A stretch of DNA of 64,000 bases, taken from positions 4,607,872 to 4,671,871 of the forward strand of contig CP121458.1 in assembly GCA_029690005.1 (NCBI GenBank), in the 5' to 3' direction. The notes beneath the pieces were generated by a model, which made no database searches, had not been told where the DNA came from, and worked only from the letters and a program-made list of their open reading frames with translations. This DNA is from Prescottella defluvii (lineage in GTDB: Bacteria; Actinomycetota; Actinomycetes; Mycobacteriales; Mycobacteriaceae). How positions within the stretch are numbered: position 1 is the stretch's first letter; each line of letters begins with the position of its first letter. Below, one piece after another: positions 6,001 through 29,182 of this stretch. The position numbers and the translations under genes were made by a program.

Positions 6001-9000
6001 ACAGCCCGAGCGTCTCCTCGGCCCCGTCCAGCTGCGGGGGCCGTCCCGAGACGGTCGCACCGAACACGACGTCGTCTCGGGAGGTGGTGCGGGACAGCAG
6101 GATCCCCACGCCGCCTGGACCACGGTGTTGACCGTGACGCCGAGGGAGTGGGCGAGATCGGTGATCGTGTCGATCAGCGACGGCGCCGCGGGGACATCGA
6201 CCTCGATCGGAGCGTCGTCCGCTGCCGCGTCCGCCGTGGCGCCAGCGAGCAGGGTGGGCTCGGTGAACCCGTCGAGCGCGGTGCGCCACGCCTGCCGGGA
6301 CCGCTCGGTGTCCCGTGCGGCGAGCCACTGCAGGAAGTCGCGGTACGGCCGCGGTTCGGGCACGGCAGCAGCCGCGTCACTGGAGGCGTAGCGGACCAGG
6401 AGCTCGCGCACCAGCAGCGGCATCGACCATCCGTCGAGCACGATGTGGTGGTTGGTCACCGCGAACGCGTACTCGTCGGCGGCGAGCCGGACCAGCGTCG
6501 CCCGCAGCAGCGGCGGGCGGTCGAGTTCGAACCGGGCCGTCCGCTCCTCGTCGAAGATCCGGGACAGCTCACGGTCGCGCTCGGCGTCCGGCAGCTGTCG
6601 GAGATCGACCTCGTTCCAGGGAACCTCGCCGTGCGCGAGGACCAGCTGGACGGGCGCGCCGGAGTCGTCGTAGACGAACGCGGTCCGCAGGTTCGCATGC
6701 AGCTCGACCACCGCGTCGAGCGCCAACCGTAGGCGGGCCGCGTCGACGCGTCCGACCAGGTCCATCCGCAGTTGCGCGGTGTACACGTCCACGCCGTCCG
6801 CGACGAGACGCGCGTGGAAGAGCAGTCCCGCCTGCAGCGGCGAGAGGGACCACACGTCGCGCACCGCCGGATAGCGATGCTCCCACCGGTCGATCTCCGC
6901 CTGGGACACCGCGACCAGCGGAACGTCCGACGGGGCGAGCCCGCCGGCGCCCGGCAGGTCGGTGTGCGCGGCCAGGCCCTCGAGGGCCCGGCGCCACAGG
7001 TCGGCCAGCTCGGCCACGTCGGCGTCACCGAGTACGGCCGTCGGATAGGCGAACGTAGCGCTCAGGCGCGGCCCGTCGGGGCCGTCGGTGACCATCGCGT
7101 TGATGTCGACGGCAGCGCCGACGGCCATCGCGGACCCGCTGCGGGCAACGAGGTCCGGGGCCGAGGGATCCGGCAACCAACCAGTGGTGGCATCGATCGA
7201 CTGCCCGACACCCAGCCGGCCGAGGTAGTTGAAGCTGATCTGTGGACGCGGCCGGCCCGCGAGTTCGTCCCGCGTGTGCGGGTCGAGGTGCCGCAGCACG
7301 CCGAAACCCATGCCGCGGCTCGGAACCGCGAGCGTCTGTTCCTTGACGGCCTTGATCACCGCGCCGGCGTCCGGCCCGCCCGCGAAGGCGTCGCCGAGAT
7401 CGACGTCGGGCAGGGCCAGCCGCACGGGGAACGTGCTGGTGAACCAGCCCACGGTGCGGGCCAGGTCCGCGCCCGGCACCACATCCTCCTCGCGACCGTG
7501 CCCCTCGAGGGTGAGCAGGACCGACCGTTCGGGGACGCCGTGCTCGTGGCGCCAGTGCACGATCGCCATCGTCAACGCGGCGAGCAGTCCGTCGGCGGCA
7601 CCGCACCCGAACGCGTCGGGAAGGCGTCCGAGGACCGTATCCGTCACCGCCGCACCGAGTTCCACGTGGACGCGCGCGGTCGTTGCGATGGTATCGATGC
7701 GCGGGTCGAGCGGTCGCGCACCCACCAGGCGGTCGGGCCCGGCGAGGATCTCGCACCACCGGTCGAGTTCGTCGCGGTAGGCGCCGTCGACGCCCGCCTC
7801 CCGCAGTCCGTGGGCCCATCGCCGGAACGAGGTGCCCACCGCAGGCAGCTCGACCGGCGTGCCCGCGCAAACCTGTAGCCACGCCACCACGAAGTCCGGC
7901 ACGAGGACGCGCCACGAGACGCCGTCGACGACGAGGTGGTGTGCCACGACGAGCAGCCTGGCGCCGAGATCGCCGGCGTCGAGCCACACCACCTGCAGCA
8001 TCACCCCGGATCGGGGATCGAGACGCTTTGCGGCACGGTCACATTCGTCGATCACCGCGGACTCGAATGCTCGGGTACCCGGCGCGCTCGTCACCGTCAC
8101 CCGGGTGACCAGGTCCGCCGGATCGACGGCGCCGGGAGCCCGACGGTGAGCATCGGCTCGCCCTGCAGGTCCGACTCCAGGCGGCTGCGCAACATGTCGT
8201 GCCGGTCCACGACCGCGCGGACGGTGTCCGCCAGGCGTCGGTCGTCGATGTCGCCGGGGGCCGTGAGGAGCACCGACTGGTGGAAGTCGTCGAACGGCCC
8301 GCGGGCCGCCATCTCGTACATCACGGGCGTCAGCGGAACCTGTCCGATTCCGCCCCCCGGGAGCTCTTCCAACAGGTCCTGCGGCACGCTGTCGATCGGC
8401 ACGGACACCCGCGCGATCTCGGCCACGGTCTTGTGCTCGAACACTTCCCGCGCGGTGAATCCGAGCCCGGCGGCCCGCGCCCGGGAGACCAGCTGCATCG
8501 CCACGATGCTGTCGCCGCCGAGCGCGAACAGCGAGTCGTGCACGCCGACGCGGTCGAGGCCGAGCACCTCGGCGACGATGTCGGCGATGGCCTGCTCGGC
8601 GGGCGTCGACGGTGCGCAGTACTCCTCGGAATCGCTGCCGAACTCGGGCAGCGGCAACGCGCGACGATCCAGCTTTCCGGCGGGGGTCGCCGGGACGTGG
8701 TCGAGGCGCACGACGGCGGCCGGCACCATGTGCGACGGCACGATCCGCGCCACGCCCGCGACGACTGCGGCCGCATCGAACTCCGCGCCGGGTCCATCCG
8801 GACGTAGGAGACCAGCACCGGGCCAGCGGCCCGCTCGTGTGCGACGGTCGCCGCGAAGTTCACGCCGTCCTGATCGAGCAGCGCCGCGTCGATCTCCCCA
8901 GCTCGATCCGGAAACCACGGATCTTGACCTGGAAGTCGGACCGGCCCACGTACTCGAGTTCGTGCGCGGCCGTCCACCGCACCTCGTCGCCCGTGCGGTA

Positions 9001-11516
9001 CATACGGGTTCCGGGTTCGCCGAACGGATCCGCGACGAACCGGTCGGCCGTGAGCGCGCCGCGACGATGGTAGCCCGGGCCAGACCGGGGCCGGTGAGAT
9101 ACAGCTCGCCCACGACGCCGACGGGGACCGGACGCAGTTTGCGGTCGAGGACGAGTGCGCCGGCGCCCTGGATCGGACGCCCGATCGTGATCGGATCGCC
9201 CGGTGCGATTGGATCACCGGCGGTGATGACGATCGTCGTCTCGGTGGGACCGTAGCTGTTGGTGAACCGGCAGACGTCACCGAACCGCTCGACGAGGTCC
9301 GGCGTGCACACGTCGCCGCCGACGACGACGGCTTCGAGGTCGGTCAGTCCCCGCGGATCGACCGTGTTCATCAGCGTGGGTGCGGAGATGATGTGCGAAA
9401 CCCGCTGCCGACGAAGCAGATCCACGAGGTCGAGGCCGCCGTAGACGTCGGGCGGTGCCACGACCATCGTCGCCCCGGAGCTGAAGGCCTGGAGCATCTC
9501 GAACACGGAGGCGTCGAAACTGGCCGACGAGAACCGCAGCACTCGGGACTGCGGGCCGATGTTCAGTTCCGGGCGCGCGCCGGAGGCGAACGCGGACAGT
9601 CCTGCGTGCGTCACCAGGACGCCCTTCGGCAGTCCGGTAGAGCCCGACGTGTAGATCATGTAGGCGGTGTTCGCGATCCCGACAGGCGCGAGCCGGTCCG
9701 CGTCGGTGACCGGATCCTGCGAGAAGTGCTCGGCGGCAACACGGGTCACGTCATCGTCGACGACGATCCAGTCGGTGTCGTCGGGCAGTCCCGGCCGTTC
9801 GGAGGCGCACGTGAGTCCGATCGCGGCCCGCGAATCGGTGAGCATGTGGACGATGCGATCCGTCGGCAGCCCCGGATCGATCGGCACGAACGCCGCACCG
9901 GTCTTGGCGACCGCCCACATCGCGATCAACGCGTCCGTCGAACGGGGCATGCTGATCGCGACGAACGTCTCGGGACCGGCGCCACGCTCGATCAGCAACC
10001 GCGCCAACCGATTCGATGTCGTATCGAGGTCGCGATAGGTGAGCTCCCCGGTGACCGCCGCGATCGCGACGCTGTCGGGGTGGTTCTCGGCGCCGCGACG
10101 CAGCAGATGTGGCAGCAGCTGCGGCGGACAGGCGGCCGGGCCGAGGAGCGGCACCAGCGCGTCACGCTCATCGGCGTGCATCACGTCGAGGCCGGCGACC
10201 GCGGTGTCGGCGGACTCGGCGAAGGCAGCGAGGAATTCGAGGAAGCGCGCATGGTGAGCGTGCAGTTCCTCCGGTGCATAGAGATTGGGGTTCGCCTCGA
10301 AGTCGACGTGCGCTCCCTCGCCCGCGAGTGCGGGGTAGATGTTCACCGCGAGGTCTTCGACGGGGCCGGTGGTGAGGACGTGCAGCGTGCCGATGTCGTG
10401 CCCGAGGCGGATCTCCCCGTGGAACATCATGATGTTGACGGCGGGGCCGAAGAACCCTCGACGACCGCCGCCGACGCCGGCGTCACGCCGGATGTCCTCG
10501 TGCCGGTACCGCTGGTGGCGCAGGACGCCGGTCAGTTCCACCTGGACCCGACGCGCCAGCTCCGCACACGTGACACCCCCGCCGGTGTCGAGACGGATGG
10601 GCACGACGTTGGAGACCATTCCGCCCGAGCGGCGCAGTTTGGCGGTGGTCCGAGCCGAGACCGGCAGGCTGAGGACGACGTCGTCCTCGCCCGTCAGGCG
10701 GGACATGAATGCACCGACCGCGGCGACCACGATCGCGGCGAACGTGATGCCGTCGGACTCGGCCACCATCCGCCGCATCGCGGACTCCACGGCGGCCGGA
10801 AGCGGACCCGTCGCCCGCTGCGAGTGCGGCCCGACGTCGGCCGATCGACCCGCCAGGCTGATCGGGTGCGGCAGGTCCCGGGTGCGCTCGGCCCAGTACC
10901 CGCGGTCCGTCTCGAACCGCGACGACGTGCGGTATCTCGCCTCGTCCTCGCTGATCTCGCGGAGACCGTAGGCCTTCCACTCCGGAAGCTCCGCGCCCGT
11001 AACCGCAGTGGTGTACCGCTCCGCGGTCCGGTTCAGGAACGTCATGGCCCCGAACCCGTCGAGGGCGATGTGGTGGATGCGGGCGTACCAGTAGTAGTGC
11101 GAGTCACCGATCCGCAGGGTGGCGGATTCCACCAGCCTGTCCGTCAGGAGGTTCACCGGGGTGCTGTACTCGCGCCGCATCCACACCTGCGCTGCCGCAA
11201 CGGGATCGGGCTCGGAACGGAAGTCGAGATGCGTCGTCCGGTCGTTCACCGCGTAGTCGAGGGCCTGGTAGGGCTCACCGTCGATCTCCACGATCCGCAA
11301 CATGCCGGTGCCCAACTCGCGGGCCGCAGTCGCGCACGCCTCCGAAAGAGCATGGACGTCGAGATCGCCGACGATCTCGATGTACTGCGCGATCGCGATC
11401 GGGACGTCCTCGATCAGGTGCTGCGCGAACCAGATCCCGCGTTGTGCCGCGGACAGTGGTAACACGTCGCCGTCGGAAGCGATGACACCAGCGCCCGAAG
11501 CTCCAGCTCCGGTCAC
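1..11516 (-). CDS. Non-ribosomal peptide synthetase, 3' end outside the window
   Basis: Multimodular NRPS of which about 3,840 codons are visible. Reading from the start, the domains are C (residues 20-460, HHIALDG), A (475-925, YTSGSTG), T (LGGDS near 1002), E (1055-1505, with [15 protein letters not shown] and FNYLGR motifs), C (1555-1985, NHHIVLDG), A (1995-2500), T (LGGNS near 2542), C (2610-3040, HHISIDG), A (3080-3550), T (near 3600), and a C domain cut by the window edge (HHISADG). The second A domain gives the specificity residues DVWHFSLVDK by eye, which matches the known serine code. The first and third (about DAFIVGSIV and DALFVGAIM) I cannot assign. The E domain predicts a D-residue at position 1, and the next C domain should be of DCL type. 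The GTG at 11516 is chosen because TAGTAT lies 7 bases upstream (leaderless start). Frame breaks lie near 9068, 8893, 8790, 8105, 6112, 3945, 3755, 2405, 1855, 503 and 208; those checked at 9068 and 8893 are lost G/C-run bases. The product is unknown. Confidence 0.93.
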
Positions 11517-11523
11517 GGATCCG

Positions 11524-11529
11524 ATACTA
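11524..11529 (-). promoter_or_regulatory. -10 element of the NRPS promoter (leaderless start)
   Basis: TAGTAT on the minus strand fits the actinobacterial TAnnnT -10 consensus and ends 7 bases before the GTG at 11516. No good ribosome binding site lies between, so transcription probably begins at the start codon. No clear -35 is visible. Confidence 0.45.
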
Positions 11530-11775
11530 GTTCCATCCAATCCTGCGAAAACCGAGTTCGCAGAAATTCGTTCCGACCCCACGCAAAACGACCCTTCACG
11601 TCCAACCTCAGAGAGCAAAAACAAGCGACCGAAGAGCGGGAAGATCTCCAATGCCGGACGTGAGAGTATCGCGTCGGGAGCATCCACTCAGCGCGAATGC
11701 TCGTACTGGGCGAAATGCACGGTATGCGTGGACCTGGGAAGGGTGGCCGAGCCCGGTCCGAACAGTGTAGGACGC

Positions 11776-11808
11776 ACTGGACCCGGTCGCACGGCGACCA
11801 GGTCCAGT
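11776..11808 (-). terminator. Hairpin after the FadD15-like ligase
   Basis: ACTGGACC and GGTCCAGT form an 8-bp outer stem. After a single mismatch, GGTCGC and GCGACC extend it by 6 bp around a 3-base loop. It begins 8 bases past the ligase stop (11816, minus strand). There is no T-tract, as is usual in actinobacteria. The rest of the 11517-11815 gap holds only the NRPS promoter region. Confidence 0.6.
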
Positions 11809-11815
11809 GGGCGGC

Positions 11816-13608
11816 TCAGTGCCCCCGGTAGATCGACTCGATCTGGTCGGCGAAGTGTTCGGACACCACGTTCCGCTTGATCTTCAAGGTCGCGGTGAGC
11901 TCGCCGGCTTCCTCGCTGAGGTCGACGGGAAGGATCTCGAAGCGCTTGATCGCCTCGGAGTGGGACACCGTCGAGTTCGCATCGTCGACCAGGGCCTGCA
12001 GCGCGGCGCGCAGATCCGGGTCGGTGCGGAGGTCGGCGACGGTGGCCGACACGGGCTTGCCGTTGGACACCTTCCAGTTCTCGAACGGCTCGGGATCGAG
12101 CGTGAGCAACGCGCCGATGAACGGCCGGCCGTCGCCGACCACCACCGCCTGCGAGATCAGGGCGTGTGAACGCAACCGGTCCTCGAGAGGACCCGGCGAG
12201 ACGTTCTTGCCGCCGGCGGTGACGAGCAGGTCCTTCTTCCGGCCCGTGATCGTCAAGTATCCGTCGCCGTCGAGTTCGCCTAGGTCCCCGGTCCGGAGCC
12301 AGCCGTCGTGAAGCGTTGCGGCAGTGGCACTCTCATTTCCCCAGTAGCCGTCGAACACGACGCCACCGCTGAGCTCGATCTCGCCGTCGTCCGCGATCCT
12401 GACGGCGTTGCCGCCCATGGGCCTACCGACCGACCCGATCTTTTGCTGCCCGGGCACGTTGACGCAGTGGGCGGCAGTCGATTCCGTCAGCCCGTAGCCC
12501 TCGTAGATGGGAATGCCGGCACCGCGGAAGAAGTGCCCGAGCCGCGGCATGAGAGCGCCGCCGCCGGAGATCGCCCACCAGCACTCGTCGCCGATCGCGG
12601 ACCGCAGCTTCTTGTAGACGAGGCGGTCCGCGACGGCGTGGTACAGCTTCAACCGCAACGACGGGCCACCTGTGTCGAGCGCCTCGCTGTACGCGACCGC
12701 GGTGGCCTCGGCGAACGCGAAGACGGCCTGCGGAACTCGGCCGCCCTTCTCCGCGGCGTGTGCGGCGCTGTCGCGCACCTTCTCGAACACGCGCGGCACA
12801 CCGAGGATCACGTGCGGGCGGAACCGCTGGAACTGTGCGGCCACGGTGCCGAAGTTCGACCAGTGTGCCTGCATCCCACCGGCCTCGAACATCGCGAGCG
12901 ACACCGCGCGCGCCAGCACGTGCGCGAGCGGCAGGAAGGTCAGCATCCGGCGACCGGGGCGGGCCACGTCACCGATGGACGCCGAGAGGATTCCACGGAC
13001 CTCGGACAGGAAGTTCCGATGCGTGAGGATGCAGCCCTTGGGGCGTCCGGTCGTGCCGGACGTGTAGACCAGCGACGCGAGATCGTCGACCCGGATGTCG
13101 GACAGTCGTCCCCGGATCACGGCGTCGTCCAGCCCGGCGCCCTCCGCGACCAGCTTCTCGACGGCGCGGTCCTCGATCTGCAGCAGCCGCGAGAGCTGCG
13201 CACCCACACCGTCGAATCCGGCGGCGTGCGTTGCGGTCTCGACGATCGCGACCGCCGCTCCGGAGTCCTCCATGATCCACTGGATCTGTTCGGGCGACGA
13301 GGAGTCGTAGATCGGCACCGACACGGCCCCGGCCGCCCAGATCGCGAAGTCGAACAGCGACCACTCGAACCGAGTCGCCGACAGCAGCGCCACTCGGTCC
13401 CCCGGCTGCACTCCCGCTGCAACGAGTCCCTTCGCGACGCCCGTCACCAGGTCGGCAAACTCCGTCGCGGTGACGTCCACCCACTCGTCACCGCGAGGCC
13501 GAGAGAGAGCACGAGATCCGGCGTGCGGCGCGCGTGCTCGAAGACGGTGTGGACGATCGAGTCGTCCTCGGCGACGGTGAAGCGGGCAGGGGTGCCGTAC
13601 TCACGCAT
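11816..13608 (-). CDS. FadD15-like long-chain acyl-CoA ligase (AMP-forming)
   Basis: AMP-dependent synthetase that activates a fatty acid to acyl-CoA through an acyl-adenylate. Visible family motifs are the P-loop [11 protein letters not shown], the YEGYGLTES core, the GWLRTGDLG hinge region and the [18 protein letters not shown]-terminal lysine segment. About 597 residues matches the FadD15 subfamily of mycobacteria and rhodococci. The ATG at 13608 is chosen because GGAG lies 9 bases upstream and it overlaps the stop of the MarR gene (13601) by 8 bases, implying translational coupling. One frame break near 13498 separates MREYGTPARF from the body. A paralog with the same N-terminus lies at 55960-57745. 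The physiological chain length cannot be read from the sequence. Confidence 0.9.
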
Positions 13609-20946: not shown

Positions 20947-21566
20947 TTACGCGTAGTCCCCGAGCACCAGCCGCGACACGTCCTGCACGTTGCGCAGGGC
21001 CTCTGGGTACCCGATGCGCCCGGTGGTCCACAGGACCAGCGAATTGAGCATCGTGCTGCCGATCGACAGCGACGCGAGCCGTGCCAGTTCGGCGGGGACG
21101 CCCTCCATCAACTCGAACAGCGCCGTCCGATTGGCCGCCGACCGCTCGTCGAGCGTGTCCCGGACGTACGGATCGTCGGACGTCTGCAACTCCACCTCGA
21201 GCCGAGCGAAGTTCGGCCCGCGCTGGAACGCCTTCATCTGCCGGGTGTACAGGTCGACGACCCGATCGAGGACCGAGGCGTGCGCCCGGCTGCGCCGTCC
21301 GGTCGCCCGCTCCTCCGCGAGCCGAGCGGCGAGAATCTCGTTCCACGCGACCATCGAGGCAGCCAGCAGGTGCTGCTTCGCCGGGAAGTAGCGATACAGC
21401 GTGCCGAGGGCGACCCCGACCGCTCGGAGACCTCGCGCATCTGAATCCCGTCGGGCCCCGTCTCGGCGAGCATCGCGATCACGGTGTCCGTCAGGTGCCG
21501 CCGACGCTCTCGTTGTGCATCGGTCATGTCGTCTGGGCTCATCGGCACGGCAACGGATTCGGTCAC
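20947..21566 (-). CDS. TetR-family regulator, KstR-like
   Basis: About 206 residues. The HTH reads GIQMREVSERSG then VALGTLYRYFPAKQHLL, close to the KstR type (QMRAVAERADVAVGTLYRYF) of mycobacterial sterol regulators. The C-terminal ligand domain ends SLVLWTTGRIGY...VSRLVLGDYA. A single lost G in the run at about 21417 breaks the frame between SG and VALG. GTG at 21566 has TAGGCT 6 bases upstream (possible leaderless start). It is the last gene after the dehydrogenase operon, with which it is probably co-regulated. It may bind the paired TGRAAC-N3-GTTCTA sites at 26818-26909. The inducer is unknown, probably an acyl-CoA. Confidence 0.85.
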
Positions 21567-21571
21567 CGGTG

Positions 21572-21577
21572 CAGCCT
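21572..21577 (-). promoter_or_regulatory. -10 element before the tetR gene
   Basis: TAGGCT on the minus strand ends 6 bases before the GTG at 21566. The same hexamer serves the second tetR at 28602. It may let the regulator be transcribed apart from the operon upstream. Confidence 0.35.
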
Positions 21578-21621
21578 AACTGTCGTCGACCTGCGTCCAC
21601 TCGGCCCGTTGCCTACGGTGG

Positions 21622-23829
21622 TCACGAGGTTCGCGGTTCCCTGGGCAGACCCAGAATCTGCTCCGAAATGACATTGAGCTGGATCTCTAGTGTGCCGCCG
21701 CCGATGAGTAGCGACGGCGTCGACAGGTACGCCTTGGCCGCCCGTCCGCCCCCGGACACGTCCGGGCCGAGGCTGCCGATCGCGGCCTCCGGCCCGAACC
21801 ACTCGAGGACCTGCGCGGTGGCGTCGGTGATGTGTCGGGCCGATGCGGCCTTGAGTGCGCTCGCCTCGACCCCGGGGTTCAGGCCCGAAAGCCTTTTGAG
21901 GACACTGCGGTGCGCGAGCGCGTCGAGCGCGCCGGTGATCGAGGTGATCCGTCCGAGTGCCGGCAGCGCGTCCTGTTGCCTGTGTGGGTCCAGGGCGCGG
22001 GCCACCTCGACCGGGTCGAAGCGGTGACCGCCCGAAACCGGGGTGGTGCCCATCGCGACCCGCTCGTTCGCGAGCGTCGTGCGCGCCACCTTCCAGCCCT
22101 CCCCCGGCGCCCCGACCAGGTCGGCGTCGGACACGAAGACGCCGTCCAGGATCACCTCGTTGAACATCTTGTCGCCGTTGGCCTCCCGCAGCGGCCGCAC
22201 GTCCACGCCGGGCGCACTCATGTCGACGAGGAAGAAGCTGATACCGCGGTGCTTGGGCACGTCGCGGTCGGTGCGGGCCAGGCAGATTCCCCAATGTGCC
22301 TCATGCGCCTTGGAATTCCACACCTTGCTTCCGTCTATGCGCCAGCCGCCGTCGACCTTGGTGGCGAACGTCGTCAGCGACGCCAGGTCCGAGCCGGCGC
22401 CGGGCTCGGAGAAGAGCTGGCACCACACGATCTCGCCGCGCAGGGTGGGCGAGACGAGCCGCTCCATCTGATCCTCGGTGCCGTACTGGAGGATCGACGG
22501 CAGCGCCCACTCGCCGATCACGGTTGTCGGCTGCGGCATCCCGGCGCGCTCGAACTCCTCGGCGATGATGAGCTGACCCGCGGTGTCGGCACCCACACCG
22601 TACGGTTCCGGATAGTGCGGCGAGACAAGTCCCCGATCGGCCAGCAGCACGCGCGCCGCCTGCGGGTCCAGTTGCGCGGCCTCCGCGATGGTCGCGGCGA
22701 CTCGCGCCCGGAACTCGGGTCGGTCCTCGACGCCGAGAGCTGCGTGCCGCTCGGTGGTCAGCGCCAGTTTGCCTGCACGCCGCGCCCACTCGTCCTGCGA
22801 TCCGCCCAGCGCGAGCAGGCTCACCGCCCGCCGCCAGTACAAGTGGATGTCGTGCTCCCACGTATTGCCGATGCCGCCGAGCAGCGTCAGGCAGTCCAGG
22901 ACCACGTCCACGGCCTCACGTCGGCACACCGTGGCGGCCCGCACCGCGGCCAGCGCCGCCTGCTGCGGATAGTCGCCGTCCGCGGCCGTGGCGGCGTCCC
23001 ATACGGCGCTGGTCATCACCTCGACACGGATGAACAGCTGCGCGCACTTGTGCTTGATCGCCTGGAAGGAGCCGATCGGCCGGCCGAACTGCTCGCGGAT
23101 CTTCGCGTACGCGAGGCTGGTCTCCTGCGCCCAGCGCGCGATGCCGACGGCTTCGGCGCACTGCAGCACCGCCGCGAGTGCCCCGACCTCCGCCGGCAGT
23201 GCCCCGAGGATGTGGTCGGCGGGAATCCGCGCTTCGGACAGGTGGATCCGACCGATGTCGCGGGTCAGGTCGACACCCTCCTCCGCAGAGCACGTGACAC
23301 CCTCCGCGTCGGATGGAACGACGAACCAGACCGGCTTCTCACCGCACTGACCCGCCAGGACCAGGACGTCGGCGCCGAGCGCACCGAGGACCGGCACCGT
23401 GGTGCCCGACGCGACGATCTCGTCGCCGTCGCCCTCGAGGGTGACGGTCCCGGGTTCGAGCCCGCACGCGCCGATCGCGCCCGCCGCGAAGCGGGGCAGC
23501 AGCGCCTTGCGCGCGGCGTCGGTGCCGTGAGCCTGGATCACCGCACTCGCTGTCACCGTCGCGAGCAGCGGGCCAGGAATCAGACCGTGGCCCGACTGTT
23601 CCAGCGCGACGGCCAGTTCCAGCAGTCCCGCGCCGGCGCCACCGTACTCCTCGTCGATGTGCAGCGACGGAATCCCCATGGCGACCAGTTGTTCCCAGTG
23701 GTCCGGCCGCTCACCGCGGCCGAGTTCCTCGAACCGGGTGCGGGTGCGCTCCACCGGGGTCTCCCGCGCGGCGAACCGGGCGAGCGCGTCGGCGAGCGCG
23801 TCGTGGTCTGCTCCGATACCGATCGGCAT
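21622..23829 (-). CDS. Two-domain acyl-CoA dehydrogenase, FadE34-like
   Basis: 735 residues, intact, about twice the usual acyl-CoA dehydrogenase length. It is a fusion of two such domains. The first half (to about 360) keeps the fold (SLHIDEEYGGAGAGLLEL, REQFGRPIGSFQAIKHK, LTLLGGIGNTWEHD). The second half has the classic FAD/substrate motifs (WCQLFSEPGAGSDLASL, IDGSKVWNSKAHEAHW) and ends LEIQLNVISEQILGLP. Fused FadE34-type enzymes act on steroid side-chain CoA thioesters in mycobacteria; by family this gene could do likewise, but the neighbours do not prove a sterol substrate. It starts 7 bases after the amidohydrolase stop, within the operon. Confidence 0.9.
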   Translation of the reverse strand: MPIGIGADHDALADALARFAARETPVERTRTRFEELGRGERPDHWEQLVAMGIPSLHIDEEYGGAGAGLLELAVALEQSGHGLIPGPLLATVTASAVIQAHGTDAARKALLPRFAAGAIGACGLEPGTVTLEGDGDEIVASGTTVPVLGALGADVLVLAGQCGEKPVWFVVPSDAEGVTCSAEEGVDLTRDIGRIHLSEARIPADHILGALPAEVGALAAVLQCAEAVGIARWAQETSLAYAKIREQFGRPIGSFQAIKHKCAQLFIRVEVMTSAVWDAATAADGDYPQQAALAAVRAATVCRREAVDVVLDCLTLLGGIGNTWEHDIHLYWRRAVSLLALGGSQDEWARRAGKLALTTERHAALGVEDRPEFRARVAATIAEAAQLDPQAARVLLADRGLVSPHYPEPYGVGADTAGQLIIAEEFERAGMPQPTTVIGEWALPSILQYGTEDQMERLVSPTLRGEIVWCQLFSEPGAGSDLASLTTFATKVDGGWRIDGSKVWNSKAHEAHWGICLARTDRDVPKHRGISFFLVDMSAPGVDVRPLREANGDKMFNEVILDGVFVSDADLVGAPGEGWKVARTTLANERVAMGTTPVSGGHRFDPVEVARALDPHRQQDALPALGRITSITGALDALAHRSVLKRLSGLNPGVEASALKAASARHITDATAQVLEWFGPEAAIGSLGPDVSGGGRAAKAYLSTPSLLIGGGTLEIQLNVISEQILGLPREPRTS

Positions 23830-23835
23830 GTCCGA

Positions 23836-24699
23836 TCAACCTTTCAGTTTCAGCACCCTGCGGGCGTTCTCGTGGAGGAACTTGGGCCACACCTCGTCCT
23901 TGAACGGCACGTGCGGCATGTCCCCGAAGATGCGGTCCAGAGTCAGCCCCGCCGGGAAGTAGCCCGCATAGATGATCTTGTCGGCACCACGGGTGTTCGC
24001 GTAGTCGACGATCGCCTTCGGATAGTGCTTGGGGGCGAACGCCGACGTCGAGTAGTACAGGTTGGGCCACTTGAGCATCAGCTTGATCGCCAGGTCCTCC
24101 CACGGCTCACACCCGTGCCGGGTCACGAACACCAGATCCGGGAAGTCGAACATCACGTCGTCGATGAGTTCGACGTGCTGGACCGCGGACTTGACCCGAG
24201 GTCCCGCGATCCCGGCGCAAGCGAAGATCGGGATGTCCAGCTCGACGCACTTGGCGTAGATGGGATACATCTGCGGTGCATTGAGAGCCACCTGCGGGAA
24301 CGTCCCCGCCGCAAACGAACTCACCGAGACGATGCCGAACTCCTCGTACTCCCGCGTCATCCGGTTCAGCGTGCCCATGATGTCGTTGGGGTCGACCGCG
24401 GAGCCCTGCGGCACGAAGCGGTCCGGGAACATCCGGACGGCGCGCTGCCCGGACTCCTTGGCCATGCTCACCATGCCGATCTCGATGCCGTGCTTGTCCA
24501 TCTCGTGCAACGTCACCGAGATCGGATCGTCCGTGGCCAGGTCCGGCACGCCCTTGAACATGTACTGCGCGGGCATGCTGAACTCGTCGCGACTCTGCCG
24601 GTCCTTTGTCTGACGCGTGATGAAGGCGTACTCGTCGTAGCCGGATTCGCGGAAACCGATGTGCGTGTCGATGATCGGGATGCCGTCGTAGGCCGTCAT
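23836..24699 (-). CDS. Amidohydrolase-2-family protein with degraded metal site
   Basis: 287 residues, TIM-barrel amidohydrolase family (as in ACMSD-type decarboxylases). The N-terminal strand-1 motif is DTHIGF, so the second His of the usual HxH is missing. The strand-8 Asp, normally in a GSDYP-like loop, is replaced (IIYAGYFPAG). RHGCEPWED still marks the central part. It may bind metal differently or be non-catalytic, for example a partner of the larger amidohydrolase encoded two genes upstream. Its ATG at 24699 overlaps the SDR stop by 4 bases (ATGA). Confidence 0.8.
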   Translation of the reverse strand: MTAYDGIPIIDTHIGFRESGYDEYAFITRQTKDRQSRDEFSMPAQYMFKGVPDLATDDPISVTLHEMDKHGIEIGMVSMAKESGQRAVRMFPDRFVPQGSAVDPNDIMGTLNRMTREYEEFGIVSVSSFAAGTFPQVALNAPQMYPIYAKCVELDIPIFACAGIAGPRVKSAVQHVELIDDVMFDFPDLVFVTRHGCEPWEDLAIKLMLKWPNLYYSTSAFAPKHYPKAIVDYANTRGADKIIYAGYFPAGLTLDRIFGDMPHVPFKDEVWPKFLHENARRVLKLKG

Positions 24700-25555
24700 A
24701 CGTTCTGCTCCTTCGCGATCGGCCTGCCATCCAGACCGTGAACCGTGACCTTCTCACGTTCGAGGATGTCCAGGCTCGCCTCGACGTTGCCGGTGTAGTG
24801 CGGCGCGCAGTCGCACAGCCACGTCACCGCCTCGACCATCTCCTCGAGCGACTCGGGAACGAACCATCGGGACCCGACCATGCTCGACGCCACCGTCAGA
24901 GCTCCGGCCGTCGCGACCGCAGAGCGCGGGCGCACCGCATTGACCCGGATCCCGGTGCCGTTCAGCTCCGCCGCCAACCCCGCGGTCATCCTGTCCTGCG
25001 CGGCCTTGCTCATGCCGTACAGGCTCGTGCCGTGGACGTCGGCGTCCAGGTCGGTTGTGCCTTCCGGGAGCGGCTCGACGGACCGCAGCCGGGCGGTGCC
25101 ACTGGTGATGTTGACGATCCAGCCCTCGCCGCGCTCACGCATCGCGGGAATTACCCGCTGCGCCAGGTCCAGCGACGCATGCACGTTCACCTCGAACACC
25201 AGATGCGCCCGCTTGGCCGGATACTCCCGCAGCGGCTGGAAGATCGCGGCCGCCGCGTTGTTGACGAGGATGTCGATCGGGCCACCCAGGGCCCGCTCGG
25301 CCTCCTCCACGATCCGCCCACGCGACTCGGGATCCTCGAGGGCGGCCGGCACGATCGCGACCGCGCCACCCGCCGAACGGATCGCCTCCGCAGTCTCGGC
25401 GAGCGTGCCCTCGAACCCGCGATCGGGCTCGTCGACGGTACGGGCCACGATCGCGACCGCGGCGCCCTCCGCCGCCAGCCGCTGTGCGATGCCCGCACCG
25501 ATCCCCGGCTGGCACCCGTGACGATCGCGCGCCGTCCGCGCAGCCTGCCCGTCAC
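24696..25555 (-). CDS. Short-chain dehydrogenase/reductase
   Basis: About 286 residues after repair of one lost base near 25508. The N-terminus reads GRRAIVTGASRG then IGAGIAQRL in the next frame, the cofactor site; NNAAAA, a Ser in VNITSGTARL, and YGMSK (Tyr, Lys) complete the catalytic set. The GTG at 25555 overlaps the preceding stop (GTGA), so it is translationally coupled to the amidohydrolase upstream. The C-terminus is longer than the minimal SDR (LDILEREKVTVHGLDG). It probably oxidises a hydroxyl of the pathway intermediate; the substrate is not known. Confidence 0.87.
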
Positions 25556-26787
25556 GCGCTGAGCTCCGCCTCGAGCTGCTTCGCGAAGGACTCGCGCAGC
25601 AGGACGTCGTTCGGGTTCTCGGGAAGTTCGGTGAGCGGCCGGGCGACCTCGGACGGCGTGGGGCCGTACTTCGCCGCCAGCGGGGCGAGCGCGTCCAGGT
25701 CGAAGTCGTAGAGTTCGGCGGCGTTCTCGGCGAACAACTTCCGCAGCTCGGCCTCGTCGACGTCGTGCATGACCTGCCGGATGCACTCGCGCGTGAACGG
25801 GTAGGTGCCCTCGTTGTGCGGGTAGTCGCTGCCCCACATGAACTTGCCGTCGCCGAGGGTGTCGCGTGAGGCCATGTCCTGCGCCGACGGCATCGTCGCG
25901 CCGACCCACACGTTGCGCCGGAAGTACTCGCTCGGACGCAGCGGCAACTGCTCGTCCTCGCTGTAGAACAGCTCGCCGATCCGGCCGGTGCGCTTGACCC
26001 GCAGGTCGACCGTGTCGAGCTGACGCATGAGGTCCGGCGCCCACGAGCAGCCCTGCTCCGACACCGCGAACTTCAGCTTCGGGAAGCGCTCGAAGACACC
26101 CGAGAGGATCATCTGCACGAGCGGACGCACCGAGTAGAACCCGACCTCGTTGATGTAGAGCAGCGAGGACGTCTTGTAGCGTCCGTAGTCCGGGAGCCCC
26201 GTGCCGGCATGGCTGTTCACCGGGACGCCGAGGTCCTCGCACACCTTCCACAGCCGGTCGTACTGCGGGTCGTACAGCGGCTTGACCCACTTGATGTCGG
26301 GCGCCAGGTTCGGCAGCAGAATGCCGCCACGCAGCCCGCGCTCCTTGATCCACTCGACGTCCTTGATCGCCTCGTCGACGTCGTTGAGGAACACCTGCCC
26401 CACACCGGCGCGCTGGGCGGGGGCCTCGTTGCAGAAATCCTGGAGCCAGCGGTTGTGGGCGCGGATGCCGGCGAGTCGCTTCTCGAAGTCCTCCGCCCGC
26501 GGCGGGCCGGCGAGGACGGCCGCACTCGGGAAGAAGGGAGGCACCGTGTTGGGGAACAGCACCTCGCCGACCGCGCCGTCGCCCTGCGTCTCGCGCCGGC
26601 GGCGCTCGTTGTCCCAGTTGCGGGTTCGCCCGTCGTCGACCAGGTCGCGGTAGGGGTTCTTGTAATCACCGCGCCAGGCGTCGAACTCGTCGTGCCACTT
26701 CGATTCGAGGTACGACCGGTAGGTGGCGTGGTCGGCACCGGCGTGGCTGTCCGCGGAGATGAGGATGTACGGCTTTTCGTTCGTCAC
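25552..26787 (-). CDS. Amidohydrolase-2-family enzyme
   Basis: 411 residues. It begins YILISADSHAG, the strand-1 metal site as found in the mycobacterial/rhodococcal amidohydrolase subgroup. Later motifs are the His in VNSHAGTG, SEQGCSWAPDLM, and the catalytic Asp loop MWGSDYPHNEGTYPF. It therefore looks catalytically complete, unlike its shorter partner at 23836. GTG at 26787 is chosen because GGGAG lies 8 bases upstream; GTG at 26796 would touch that site. First gene of the operon amidohydrolase-SDR-amidohydrolase-acyl-CoA dehydrogenase-tetR. The reaction (hydrolysis or decarboxylation) cannot be told from sequence. Confidence 0.88.
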   Translation of the reverse strand: MTNEKPYILISADSHAGADHATYRSYLESKWHDEFDAWRGDYKNPYRDLVDDGRTRNWDNERRRRETQGDGAVGEVLFPNTVPPFFPSAAVLAGPPRAEDFEKRLAGIRAHNRWLQDFCNEAPAQRAGVGQVFLNDVDEAIKDVEWIKERGLRGGILLPNLAPDIKWVKPLYDPQYDRLWKVCEDLGVPVNSHAGTGLPDYGRYKTSSLLYINEVGFYSVRPLVQMILSGVFERFPKLKFAVSEQGCSWAPDLMRQLDTVDLRVKRTGRIGELFYSEDEQLPLRPSEYFRRNVWVGATMPSAQDMASRDTLGDGKFMWGSDYPHNEGTYPFTRECIRQVMHDVDEAELRKLFAENAAELYDFDLDALAPLAAKYGPTPSEVARPLTELPENPNDVLLRESFAKQLEAELSA

Positions 26788-26817
26788 GATGGACACTCCC
26801 GACTGAAGGGTTCAATA

Positions 26818-27015: not shown

Positions 27016-28233
27016 CTACGACTGCGGGGTCGCGAACCTCGACGCGAAGGCGTGGATGCTCGCGACGACGTGGTCGAGTTCCTCGTCGCTCATCCCGTGG
27101 CTCATGCCGAGCGACATCCCGCGCTCGAAGACCTCGTCCGCGTTGGGCAGACCACCCTCGGGAACCCGGTACTCGACATTGCGCATCATCGGATGACGAG
27201 TGACGTTGCCACTCCACACCGTTCGCGTGTCGATACCCGCCCCCTCGAGCGACTCCTGCAGGTCCGAACGGGCGAAGCCGGCATCTTCACGCACCGTCAC
27301 CGGGTAGCACAGCCACGCGGTATGGAAGCCCTCGAGCTGCTTCGGCAGGCGGAACAGCGACGGATACGCCCCGAACGCGGCGGAGAACGCCTCGAAGATC
27401 TGGGCCCGACGCTTGTAGTTCGCGTCGAGCTTGCTCAACTGCACCAGACCGAACGCCGACCCCAACTCGGACGGCTCGAAGTTCCACGGCAGCACATCGA
27501 AGATGAAGTCGTTGTCGTAGGCCACACCGTCGAGGTCCTCCCGGAAGACCCGCCCTGTGTTCTCGGAACCGAACAGGTGCGGCTCCGAGCGACGGCCCCA
27601 CCGGCGCAGCATCAGGCCCTTGTCGCGGAGCTTCTCGTCGTCGAGGCACACCATGCCGCCCTGGCCGGCGCACGTGATGATGTGGGCCATCGCGAAACTC
27701 GTCACGGTGATGTCCGACCGGGACCCGGTCTTGGTGCCCCGCAACGTCGTCCCGATGCAGTCGCACGAATCCTCGATCACCTTCAGGCCGTGGCGGTCGG
27801 CGATCTCCCGGATCGCGTCCCAGTCCGGCGCGTTCCCCGCAAGGTTCGGGACCAGAATCGCCCCGGTCTTCTCGGTGATCAACTCCTCGATCTTCGTGAC
27901 GTCGACGTTGTAGGTGTCGGGCTCGACATCGACGAACACCGGGATCCACCCGCCACGCACGATCGGCGACACGTCGGTCGAGAACGTGAGCGGCGAGGTG
28001 ATGACCTCGGAACCCTTGGGCAGGTCGAGCAATTCGAGCGCCAGGTACAGCGCCGACGAGCCGGAGTTGCACATCAGCCCCAGCTTCTTGCCGTACAGGT
28101 CGGCAACCCGGCGCTCCATCTCCGCGACGTTCTTGCCGATCTTCAAGGCGAACGGACCACCCCGCAGCACCTCGAGGCACGCATCGATCTCGGCATCGTC
28201 GTGAACACTTCGGGCATAGACAACCCTGGTCAT
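27016..28233 (-). CDS. DegT/RfbH-type PLP enzyme with His in place of the catalytic Lys
   Basis: 405 residues, intact. The fold is that of DegT/DnrJ/EryC1 aminotransferases (CNSGSSALYLALELL, VFVDVEPDTYNVDV, IEDSCDCIG). The residue that normally forms the PLP Schiff base is His: SFAMAHIITCAGQGG aligns with SFYPAHHxTMGEGG of the sugar 3-dehydratases RfbH and ColD. The C-terminal motif (GNVTRHP, YRVPEGGLPNADEV) also matches that group. Those enzymes remove a 3-hydroxyl with bound PMP or PLP rather than transaminate. ATG at 28233 has GAGGAG upstream. No sugar-nucleotide genes are near; the context is catabolic. It could still act on a sugar. Confidence 0.87.
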   Translation of the reverse strand: MTRVVYARSVHDDAEIDACLEVLRGGPFALKIGKNVAEMERRVADLYGKKLGLMCNSGSSALYLALELLDLPKGSEVITSPLTFSTDVSPIVRGGWIPVFVDVEPDTYNVDVTKIEELITEKTGAILVPNLAGNAPDWDAIREIADRHGLKVIEDSCDCIGTTLRGTKTGSRSDITVTSFAMAHIITCAGQGGMVCLDDEKLRDKGLMLRRWGRRSEPHLFGSENTGRVFREDLDGVAYDNDFIFDVLPWNFEPSELGSAFGLVQLSKLDANYKRRAQIFEAFSAAFGAYPSLFRLPKQLEGFHTAWLCYPVTVREDAGFARSDLQESLEGAGIDTRTVWSGNVTRHPMMRNVEYRVPEGGLPNADEVFERGMSLGMSHGMSDEELDHVVASIHAFASRFATPQS

Positions 28234-28390: not shown

Positions 28391-28406
28391 TTGAACGTTC
28401 ATTCAA
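28391..28406. promoter_or_regulatory. TetR operator candidate 1
   Basis: TTGAACG-TTC-ATTCAA, matching candidate 2 at all 13 fixed positions. It lies about 160 bases upstream of the DegT-like gene and could control that gene. Confidence 0.6.
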
Positions 28407-28601: not shown

Positions 28602-29182
28602 GTGTCAGAACCTCACGACAGGAAGTCCGAAATCCTCGATGCCGCGGCGGCCTTGTTCGCGGTGCAGGGGATCGCGGGTACGTCGATGCGCGAGATCGGC
28701 GACGCGGTCGGACTGAACGCCGGCGCGCTCTACCACTACTTCCGGTCGAAGGGCGCGATCGTCAACGAACTGGTCACCGGATTTCTCGCCGATCTGCTCA
28801 CGCACTATCGCGCGATGGATCTCGACCGACTCGAGCCCGCGCCCGGCTGAAGGCGATCGTCGATGTCTCCCTGACGACCGGCGCCGCGCGTCCCAACGCG
28901 ACCAAGGTCTACCACGCGGAATTCGCGAACCTGCGCAAGCTGCGTGACTACGCCGAGGCCCGCGCACTCGCGGACGAGATCCAGAAGATCTGGCTCGACG
29001 CGATCGAGGCCGGCAAGGACACCGGCGTCCTCCGAAAGGACGTCCCTTCCAAGGTGTTCCACCGGTTCCTTCGTGACTCGGTGTGGTTCACCGTCTACTG
29101 GCGCAAGCCCGACGACCCGTACACCCTCGAGGAACTGTCCGCCGACTGCATCTCGGCGTTCCTCGACGGGATGGCCGTCTGA
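28602..29182 (+). CDS. TetR-family regulator, KstR2-like
   Basis: About 193 residues. The HTH reads TSMREIGDAVGLNAGALYHYFRSKGAIV, very like KstR2 (VRDIADGAGILSGSLYHHFASKEEMV). The C-terminal domain (FLRDSVWFTVYWRKPDDPYTLEELSAD) also resembles KstR2, whose ligand is an acyl-CoA. One C lost from a run near 28845 breaks the frame. GTG at 28602 has GGAAGGG 5 bases upstream. It is divergent from the DegT-like gene, and a matching operator pair lies between. It probably represses both itself and the neighbour until a CoA intermediate binds; the ligand identity is unknown. Confidence 0.87.

Follow-up and report, generated by a model that had tools for sequence, protein, structure and literature searches.

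What does a DegT-family protein carrying His in place of the Schiff-base Lys, as deoxysugar 3-dehydratases do, accomplish in a locus of apparently catabolic genes? The question is raised by a putative PMP-type dehydratase with a His-for-Lys exchange (His184), assigned from Pfam, NCBIfam, PDB alignment and a tree, and encoded on the minus strand at positions 27016..28233 of the window, i.e., the whole 64 kb stretch of DNA analysed here. The reading frame runs from an ATG at 28233 to 27016 and encodes 405 amino acids; as relatives with 50-93% identity occur in many genomes, it is not a chance ORF. We consider, at a probability of roughly 0.55, that this protein is a PMP enzyme performing a ColD-type reductive dehydroxylation in steroid catabolism. 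The chemistry is a strong inference, and the pathway is probably that of steroid breakdown, as judged from gene neighbourhoods.

The protein belongs to the DegT/DnrJ/EryC1/StrS superfamily (PF01041), with a score of 281 bits versus a cutoff of 19.8. The best NCBIfam model was RfbH (NF011936), at 267 bits versus a cutoff of 423, under the equivalog threshold. The closest solved relative was E1 (3bcx), the E1/RfbH-type CDP-4-keto-6-deoxyglucose 3-dehydratase, with an E value of 5.6e-59 for the single sequence and 1.4e-85 with profile A1. Chains of ColD, the GDP-4-keto-6-deoxymannose 3-dehydratase of the same superfamily, also matched (3gr9, 2gms), the protein being nearer to E1 than to ColD in this PDB search. 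A sequence-only reading of the locus had proposed a fit to the RfbH/ColD type, which held as far as sequence similarity can tell, but the motif SFAMAHIITC, which it had placed at the C-terminus, sits mid-protein.

In the alignment to E1, His184 of this motif faces the position at which wild-type 3bcx (His) and the variant 3bb8 (Lys) differ, and it can thus be equated with the PLP-lysine position. This His was invariant in all 62 aligned clade rows, many of them near copies, and no Lys was found at the PLP site, which confirms the exchange that had been read from the sequence. Lys-type sugar aminotransferases, characterized by a Lys at that site, formed a separate tree branch. Alignment A1 (28 rows, 50-93% identity to the window protein) kept N56, S57, G58, E154, D155, D158, S179, and H184; NSGSS was conserved in the relatives besides E154/D155, D158, and S179, and the cysteine of IEDSC157 was kept in 61 of the 62 clade rows.

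Passages of PMC8987622 describe sugar 3-dehydratases as enzymes with a PMP cofactor in which His replaces Lys; E1 and SpnQ have four cysteines and a [2Fe-2S] cluster, whereas ColD has no cluster, regains PMP from glutamate and releases ammonia. The E1 loop DCYCAPGCDNTC aligned to RRSEPHLFGSENTG in the window protein, a stretch with zero cysteines. The C-x-C loop of the four-cysteine [2Fe-2S] motif was absent from the window protein and from the catabolic rows compared, L074 having a single Cys there. The window protein also differed from E1 by one residue inserted after HIIT. Because the cysteine loop of E1 is absent, a ColD-like chemistry using PMP and glutamate would be expected, and the dehydratase looks ColD-like in mechanism although its sequence is closer to E1; with ColD it shares His for Lys and the lack of an Fe-S motif, but no sugar markers were found around its clade. 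The clade (at least 95%) departed at 21 positions from every one of the four sugar-context rows and the six RfbH/E1 rows. Two of these positions (G26 and P358) are opposite gaps in most or all of the compared rows, and R211, R215, E217, and G222, in the former Fe-S region, are also among the 21.

The genes that follow on the minus strand encode two PF04909 proteins, AH1 (25552..26796) and AH2 (23836..24699), an SDR oxidoreductase located between them (24696..25517), a 735-aa fused double acyl-CoA dehydrogenase (21622..23829), and a KstR-like TetR regulator (20947..21600), while a divergent, c2-type TetR regulator is found on the plus strand (28602..29176). The SDR was assigned by Pfam, was 86% identical to its L018 counterpart over residues 14-285 (the first 13 residues lying outside the match), and gave no hit in a PDB sequence search at E 1e-25. 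The fused dehydrogenase was assigned by Pfam and by PDB relatives that include Tcur3483 (7e-33). With the KstR model NF033703, the window ORF scored 41 bits and an intact ortholog 75 bits, versus a cutoff of 280. The sequence-only reading had listed amidohydrolases, an SDR, an acyl-CoA dehydrogenase, and KstR/KstR2-like regulators; all were recovered except the KstR2 type, no KstR2 model being among the matches. Both TetR genes are split into two frames in the window (21566-21414 and 21417-20956; 28602-28838 and 28838-29176) and are single frames in genus mates, e.g., L018. Since the completeness is also 79%, these splits look like indel errors of the assembly, with pseudogenes as the alternative. 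Elsewhere in the window, an NRPS-like condensation/adenylation/carrier protein and an AMP-binding ligase were recognized by Pfam only (8097-13480).

A genome scan for relatives provided 77 loci, taken from 142 candidates encoding one. Clade loci are defined here as L017-L080 minus four sugar-context loci (n = 60, some with short flanks). The gene maps were made with a codon-usage gene finder, which detected no genes in L075 and L076 and may therefore miss genes. Three main neighbourhood types were observed in these maps, in which most neighbours, namely those with no cited match, were named by eye. Type A, that of the window, occurred in Prescottella/Rhodococcus and one Nocardia MAG, and comprises genes for TetR, dehydratase, AH1, SDR, AH2, fused acyl-CoA dehydrogenase, and KstR-like TetR. 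Type B, mostly at 66-71% identity, was found in Rhodococcus ruber, Nocardioides, Geodermatophilus, Actinomadura, Streptosporangium, and others, with genes for TetR, MaoC, DUF35, MaoC, Ltp2, dehydratase, often SDR, thiolase, and fused and single acyl-CoA dehydrogenases. Type C, at 81-91% identity, was observed in Nocardia, Saccharopolyspora, Amycolatopsis, and one Rhodococcus; it is more variable, often with TetR, VOC protein, SDR, and dehydratase genes, then AKR, LLM monooxygenase, and transporter genes. The conserved partnership of amidohydrolase, SDR, and acyl-CoA dehydrogenase that had been suggested for the window was therefore recovered in part: the SDR and the fused acyl-CoA dehydrogenase were each present in 27 of the 60 clade loci, but AH1 and AH2 in just 9 each. 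Two loci of Acidimicrobiia (L066 and L071) carry both AH1 and AH2.

Genes matching KshA, KstD, HsaA, Ltp2, and a steroid-type BVMO were identified next to relatives of the dehydratase, a context that goes beyond the sequence-only reading. In PDB searches, the L025 neighbours KshA and KstD matched 4qdf (E 1e-187) and 7p18 (E 5e-103), respectively, the L026 neighbour HsaA matched 2rfq (E 1e-130), and the Ltp2 of L040 matched 6ok1 (E 2e-172). The BVMO of L027 matched the steroid monooxygenase 4aos (E 2e-197), followed by a strong match to phenylacetone monooxygenase (1e-161). A window-type locus, L022, also has an Ltp2 homolog (68%). When six steroid markers were counted (KshA, KstD, HsaA, HsaD, BVMO, and Ltp2), at least one was present in 30 of the 42 clade loci that span 18 kb or more, Ltp2 alone in 20.

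The distance between the dehydratase gene and KshA or KstD was determined in two sets of genomes. KshA/KstD lay within 10, 20, and 40 kb in 3, 5, and 6 genomes of a 12-genome set, hand-chosen partly after loci had been viewed (0.23, 0.43, and 0.79 expected), and in 5, 7, and 7 of 14 further genomes, for some of which the nearer surroundings had already been viewed (0.33, 0.62, and 1.19 expected). These chance figures assume independent genomes and take no account of contig ends; they are too small because related genomes share synteny. In the Nocardia genome G062, three KshA genes, several KstD-like genes, and one BVMO-like gene, split at a fetch boundary, were found at 60-140 kb of contig C10. 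The AH1, SDR, AH2, fused FadE, and KstR-like genes of this genome, with 81-92% identity to the respective top match in the set, belong to the same steroid cluster and are located about 47-53 kb from the dehydratase gene. In G067, homologs of KshA, KstD, and HsaA lie on the same contig as the type B operon, as do further genes read by eye as HsaC, HsaD, HsaE-G, and KshB. Judging from these gene contents, the steroid context is well supported for the actinomycete relatives and lacking in the deeper branches.

Would another alicyclic compound, such as a diterpenoid, a hopanoid, or a cyclitol carboxylate, fit a catabolic dehydratase that has steroid neighbours in part of its clade? The six markers were absent from 12 of the 42 long loci (L020, L021, L023, L024, L030, L036, L038, L053, L059, L072, L073, and L074) and from all 14 loci of Acidimicrobiia and proteobacteria (L053, L062, L064-L074, and L077), several of which are short. 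KshA/KstD were not nearby in G063, G065, G066, G068, G069, G003, G005, G009, G013, G025, G029, and G152, some of whose contigs are short, and G152 has the dehydratase gene with neither KshA nor KstD at the thresholds used. In the genome of the window itself, the nearest KstD and KshA are 260 kb and 706 kb away from the dehydratase gene, respectively. A nonsteroidal substrate would agree with these gaps and with the similarity of AH1 to PtmU3, a diterpenoid hydroxylase. Against it stand the overrepresentation of KshA/KstD around the gene in both genome sets and, in G062 and G067, the ring-degradation genes located on the contig of the dehydratase; we regard such a substrate as rather unlikely. 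As a separate observation, the L073 locus (Acidimicrobiia), which has none of the six markers, contains a P450-like, an acyl-CoA dehydrogenase-like, and a further amidohydrolase-like gene near the dehydratase (L073:13845-21166; by eye).

The surroundings were also searched with five sugar-cluster queries, namely RfbF, RfbG, the TPP enzyme, and a glycosyltransferase from L075, and a second glycosyltransferase from L079 (E 1e-15, 30% identity, half of the length). None of the 60 clade loci was matched, nor was anything in the 64 kb window, and a Pfam scan of 18 other proteins of the window recognized no sugar-nucleotide family, in agreement with the earlier statement that the window has no sugar-nucleotide, glycosyltransferase, or LPS genes. 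The four sugar-context loci served as a control: every one was matched by at least one query, and L076 and L078 were not the sources of the queries matching them; RfbF and RfbG are of little reach, since they matched only L075, their source.

In a tree of 60 of the 80 rows (20 removed by hand, mostly near copies), 43 rows formed a single clade with a support of 100/99. Outward from this clade, the midpoint-rooted tree placed its sister L075/L076 (Gammaproteobacteria), then L078/L079 (Yanofskybacteria), then Fe-S-type RfbH, with the Lys aminotransferases farthest; some branches are long, and the tree program warns about joins there. The nearest outgroups are surrounded by sugar genes (names by eye): the L075 dehydratase adjoins glucose-1-phosphate cytidylyltransferase-like and CDP-glucose 4,6-dehydratase-like genes, that of L076 adjoins epimerase- and glycosyltransferase-like genes, and those of L078/L079 lie among glycosyltransferase-like and TPP-enzyme (YerE-like) genes. 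All four outgroup proteins share with the window protein the His, the one-residue insertion, and a loop stretch in which, as far as compared, there is no cysteine. Because these sugar-context proteins are Fe-S-free too, loss of the Fe-S cluster seems to have preceded the move out of sugar metabolism. The grouping of the relatives into one clade beside them suggests a single exit, which appears to have happened once. The clade is real, unusual, and coherent, and the gene is rare and patchy: 16 of 61 near genomes matched at E 1e-40, 4 of these 16 (L013-L016) being of the RfbH type with cysteines, and 9 of 397 genomes drawn from the order matched at E 1e-120, including that of the window.

That the enzyme has remained a sugar dehydratase, with the glycone of a plant glycoside or saponin as its target or with a deoxysugar of the cell envelope that is made elsewhere, would be in line with its nearest characterised enzyme, a sugar-nucleotide 3-dehydratase, and with the sugar genes around the nearest outgroups. 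This appears improbable given that RfbF, RfbG, glycosyltransferase, and YerE-like queries matched 0 of the 60 clade loci, that several of the 21 clade-distinguishing positions surround the old Fe-S loop, and that the partners are SDR, acyl-CoA dehydrogenase, and Ltp2 genes. Homologs are thus not confined to sugar-nucleotide clusters, even if the nearest outgroups do sit there, and the recruitment of a PMP-type dehydratase into catabolism, as first suggested for this locus, is supported by the invariant His184 and the absence of sugar matches, catalysis itself being predicted. Two side observations were made on these loci. The sugar clusters L075:7966-16862 and L079:6975-11188 combine an Fe-S-free His dehydratase with a YerE-like TPP enzyme gene (by eye), and dideoxy or branched sugars are perhaps made there in ColD style rather than by the E1/E3 pair. 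Moreover, the record of L067 is titled as a Bifidobacterium breve MAG, but its gene order is common to L068 and L070 (Acidimicrobiia/Actinomycetota), and the label is probably wrong.

Simple beta-elimination is not open to a hydroxyl alpha to a ketone; such a hydroxyl can depart when PMP forms a Schiff base on the ketone, as in ColD. In the proposed steroid reaction, the ketone of an intermediate would condense with PMP to a Schiff base, His184 would take the C4' proton, and the hydroxyl on the carbon next to the ketone would depart. Hydrolysis would then yield the deoxygenated ketone, ammonia, and PLP, and glutamate would restore PMP from PLP, so that an alpha-hydroxyketone would be converted into a ketone at the cost of one glutamate. 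In the window operon, the SDR might make the ketone, perhaps after hydroxylation by AH1/AH2 acting as an AibH1H2/PtmU3-like oxygenase, the order being hydroxylation, oxidation, and dehydroxylation. In other loci, the ketone could come from Ltp2 or from a BVMO, an esterase, and an SDR. A more comprehensive proposal remains tentative, its chances falling slightly short of even: the His-type PMP dehydratase clade would have left deoxysugar biosynthesis once and would now remove steroid hydroxyls alpha to a ketone in actinobacteria at the expense of glutamate, the PF04909 pair and the SDR of window-type operons installing the ketone and the dehydratase expelling the hydroxyl.

The same steroid context (KshA, KstD, HsaA, Ltp2, and steroid monooxygenase matches) could accommodate a transaminase-like enzyme for an amino-steroid, e.g., a steroidal alkaloid, in which PLP takes the amine, glutamate/2-oxoglutarate is the partner, and His stands for Lys. 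The superfamily is the same, and passages of PMC8987622 report aminotransferase activity for SpnQ, a His-type enzyme, without its reductase, but none for ColD and E1 under similar conditions. As the Lys-type aminotransferases also sit on a separate branch, and no amine-specific gene was noticed by eye in the loci, we give this activity little credence. A catalytically dead or regulatory DegT protein is hardly conceivable: the site is without Lys and some members of the family were first described as regulators, but His, Asp, and the phosphate-loop residues are invariant across the clade alignment.

AH1, a candidate catalytic subunit of an amidohydrolase-related dinuclear oxygenase according to Pfam, PDB matches, and residue conservation, has PtmU3 as its closest solved relative (3e-24); the decarboxylase 4icm also matches (7e-11). 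PF04909 also includes hydrolases, hydratases, and decarboxylases. The AH1 residues D13-x-H15, H193, E244, D321, and H324-x-E326 were invariant in 18 rows, so that an acidic residue lies two positions after the barrel His in 18 of 18. AH2, by alignment, carries AGYFP at the SDYPH of AH1, was without the H-x-E motif in 11 of 11 rows, and may correspond to an AibH1-like accessory subunit. One of the two window proteins first read as amidohydrolases thus bears the H-x-E motif, and an acidic residue at this H-x-E/D position is tied to binuclear centres in passages of PMC7782822; PtmU3 is described as a diterpenoid hydroxylase with a diiron centre. For this reason AH1/AH2 are read as a putative oxygenase pair, and an assignment to C-C hydrolases or thioesterases was rejected. 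Because AH1 is nearest to PtmU3 and has the H-x-E motif, AH1/AH2 are regarded as a candidate AibH1H2-like pair, on the strength of that motif and the 3e-24 match. AH1 resembles AibH1H2, PtmU3, and SfbO in its binuclear-centre acidic residue, and the pairing of two PF04909 genes in the operon, one lacking the motif, recalls AibH1H2 with its accessory AibH1; AH1/AH2 differ in that no small Rieske partner gene was noticed by eye beside them and in that a decarboxylase also matches AH1. Such a pair, one protein with the binuclear-oxygenase motif and one without, was observed from Prescottella to Acidimicrobiia (L066:2393-5657; L071), with the dehydratase between or beside the two genes.

Regarding the position attacked, our best guess, and a weak one, is a 16-OH beside a 17-ketone. 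The BVMO route leads to a 17-oxygenated product. Ltp2 yields a 17-ketone (passages of PMC6678751); the guess follows from both routes giving a 17-oxygenated steroid in which C13 has no leaving group. An 11-OH with a 9-ketone, a 20-OH with a 22-ketone, and a 17- or 21-OH with a 20-ketone are open alternatives, and a single common position is itself a guess because the clusters differ (Ltp2, BVMO, or window-type operon). The range of conceivable substrates includes abscisic acid, cyclitols, sapogenins, ecdysteroids, and corticosteroids, among which the data give no preference.

In passages of PMC8399759 and PMC13101464, a steroid 12-OH is removed by SteC/Hsh1 and SteD/Sor1 and a 7-OH by ScdH or Hsh2. 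These proteins resemble our proposal in the net loss of a steroid hydroxyl during catabolism, but belong to other families and are described there as dehydratases; the passages omit alpha-ketols, whether corticosteroid-, estriol-, sapogenin-, or ecdysteroid-derived. The terms "DegT" and "aminotransferase" are absent from the main texts of PMC8399759, PMC13101464, PMC6678751, PMC7807495, and PMC9782250, as is "pyridoxal" from that of PMC8399759, and no report of a DegT-family enzyme in steroid catabolism was found among the matches listed in the open-access literature. If true, a B6 enzyme for alpha-ketols would represent a type of reaction that is new to steroid breakdown, as well as a clean example of an enzyme shift from sugar biosynthesis to catabolism; its gene would be a marker for degraders of highly hydroxylated steroids, and the enzyme a possible biocatalyst for steroid dehydroxylation.

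A putative TetR-operator-like motif, ARCGNTYRYTCA (ATTGAACGTTCATTCAA in context), lies between the TetR gene and the dehydratase gene (28394..28405, plus strand) and is the sole copy in the 64 kb window. Among the 37 loci with a c2-type TetR, from types A, B, and C, 30 have this palindrome-like sequence no more than 460 bp upstream of the TetR gene; the 37 loci include several same-genome pairs or near copies, and the pattern was derived from the promoters on which it was counted. We found 33 copies in 17.8 kb of promoter DNA versus 13 in the other 593 kb, and several of these 13 also lie in promoters of the same clusters (e.g., L023, L059, and L042). Given how the motif was defined and the near-copy loci, only its rarity elsewhere is independent evidence. 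A wider regulon reaching G062 was rejected, as the motif is absent from all four stretches of this genome (L094-L097) and the gene maps show no c2-group TetR in L025. Genes for ABC importers of the oligopeptide type (by eye) were repeatedly encountered close to the dehydratase (L097:7805-13403, L098:3259-9244, and L042:2270-3868), and in L042 the operator-like motif was observed upstream of the ABC binding-protein gene (L042:4082).
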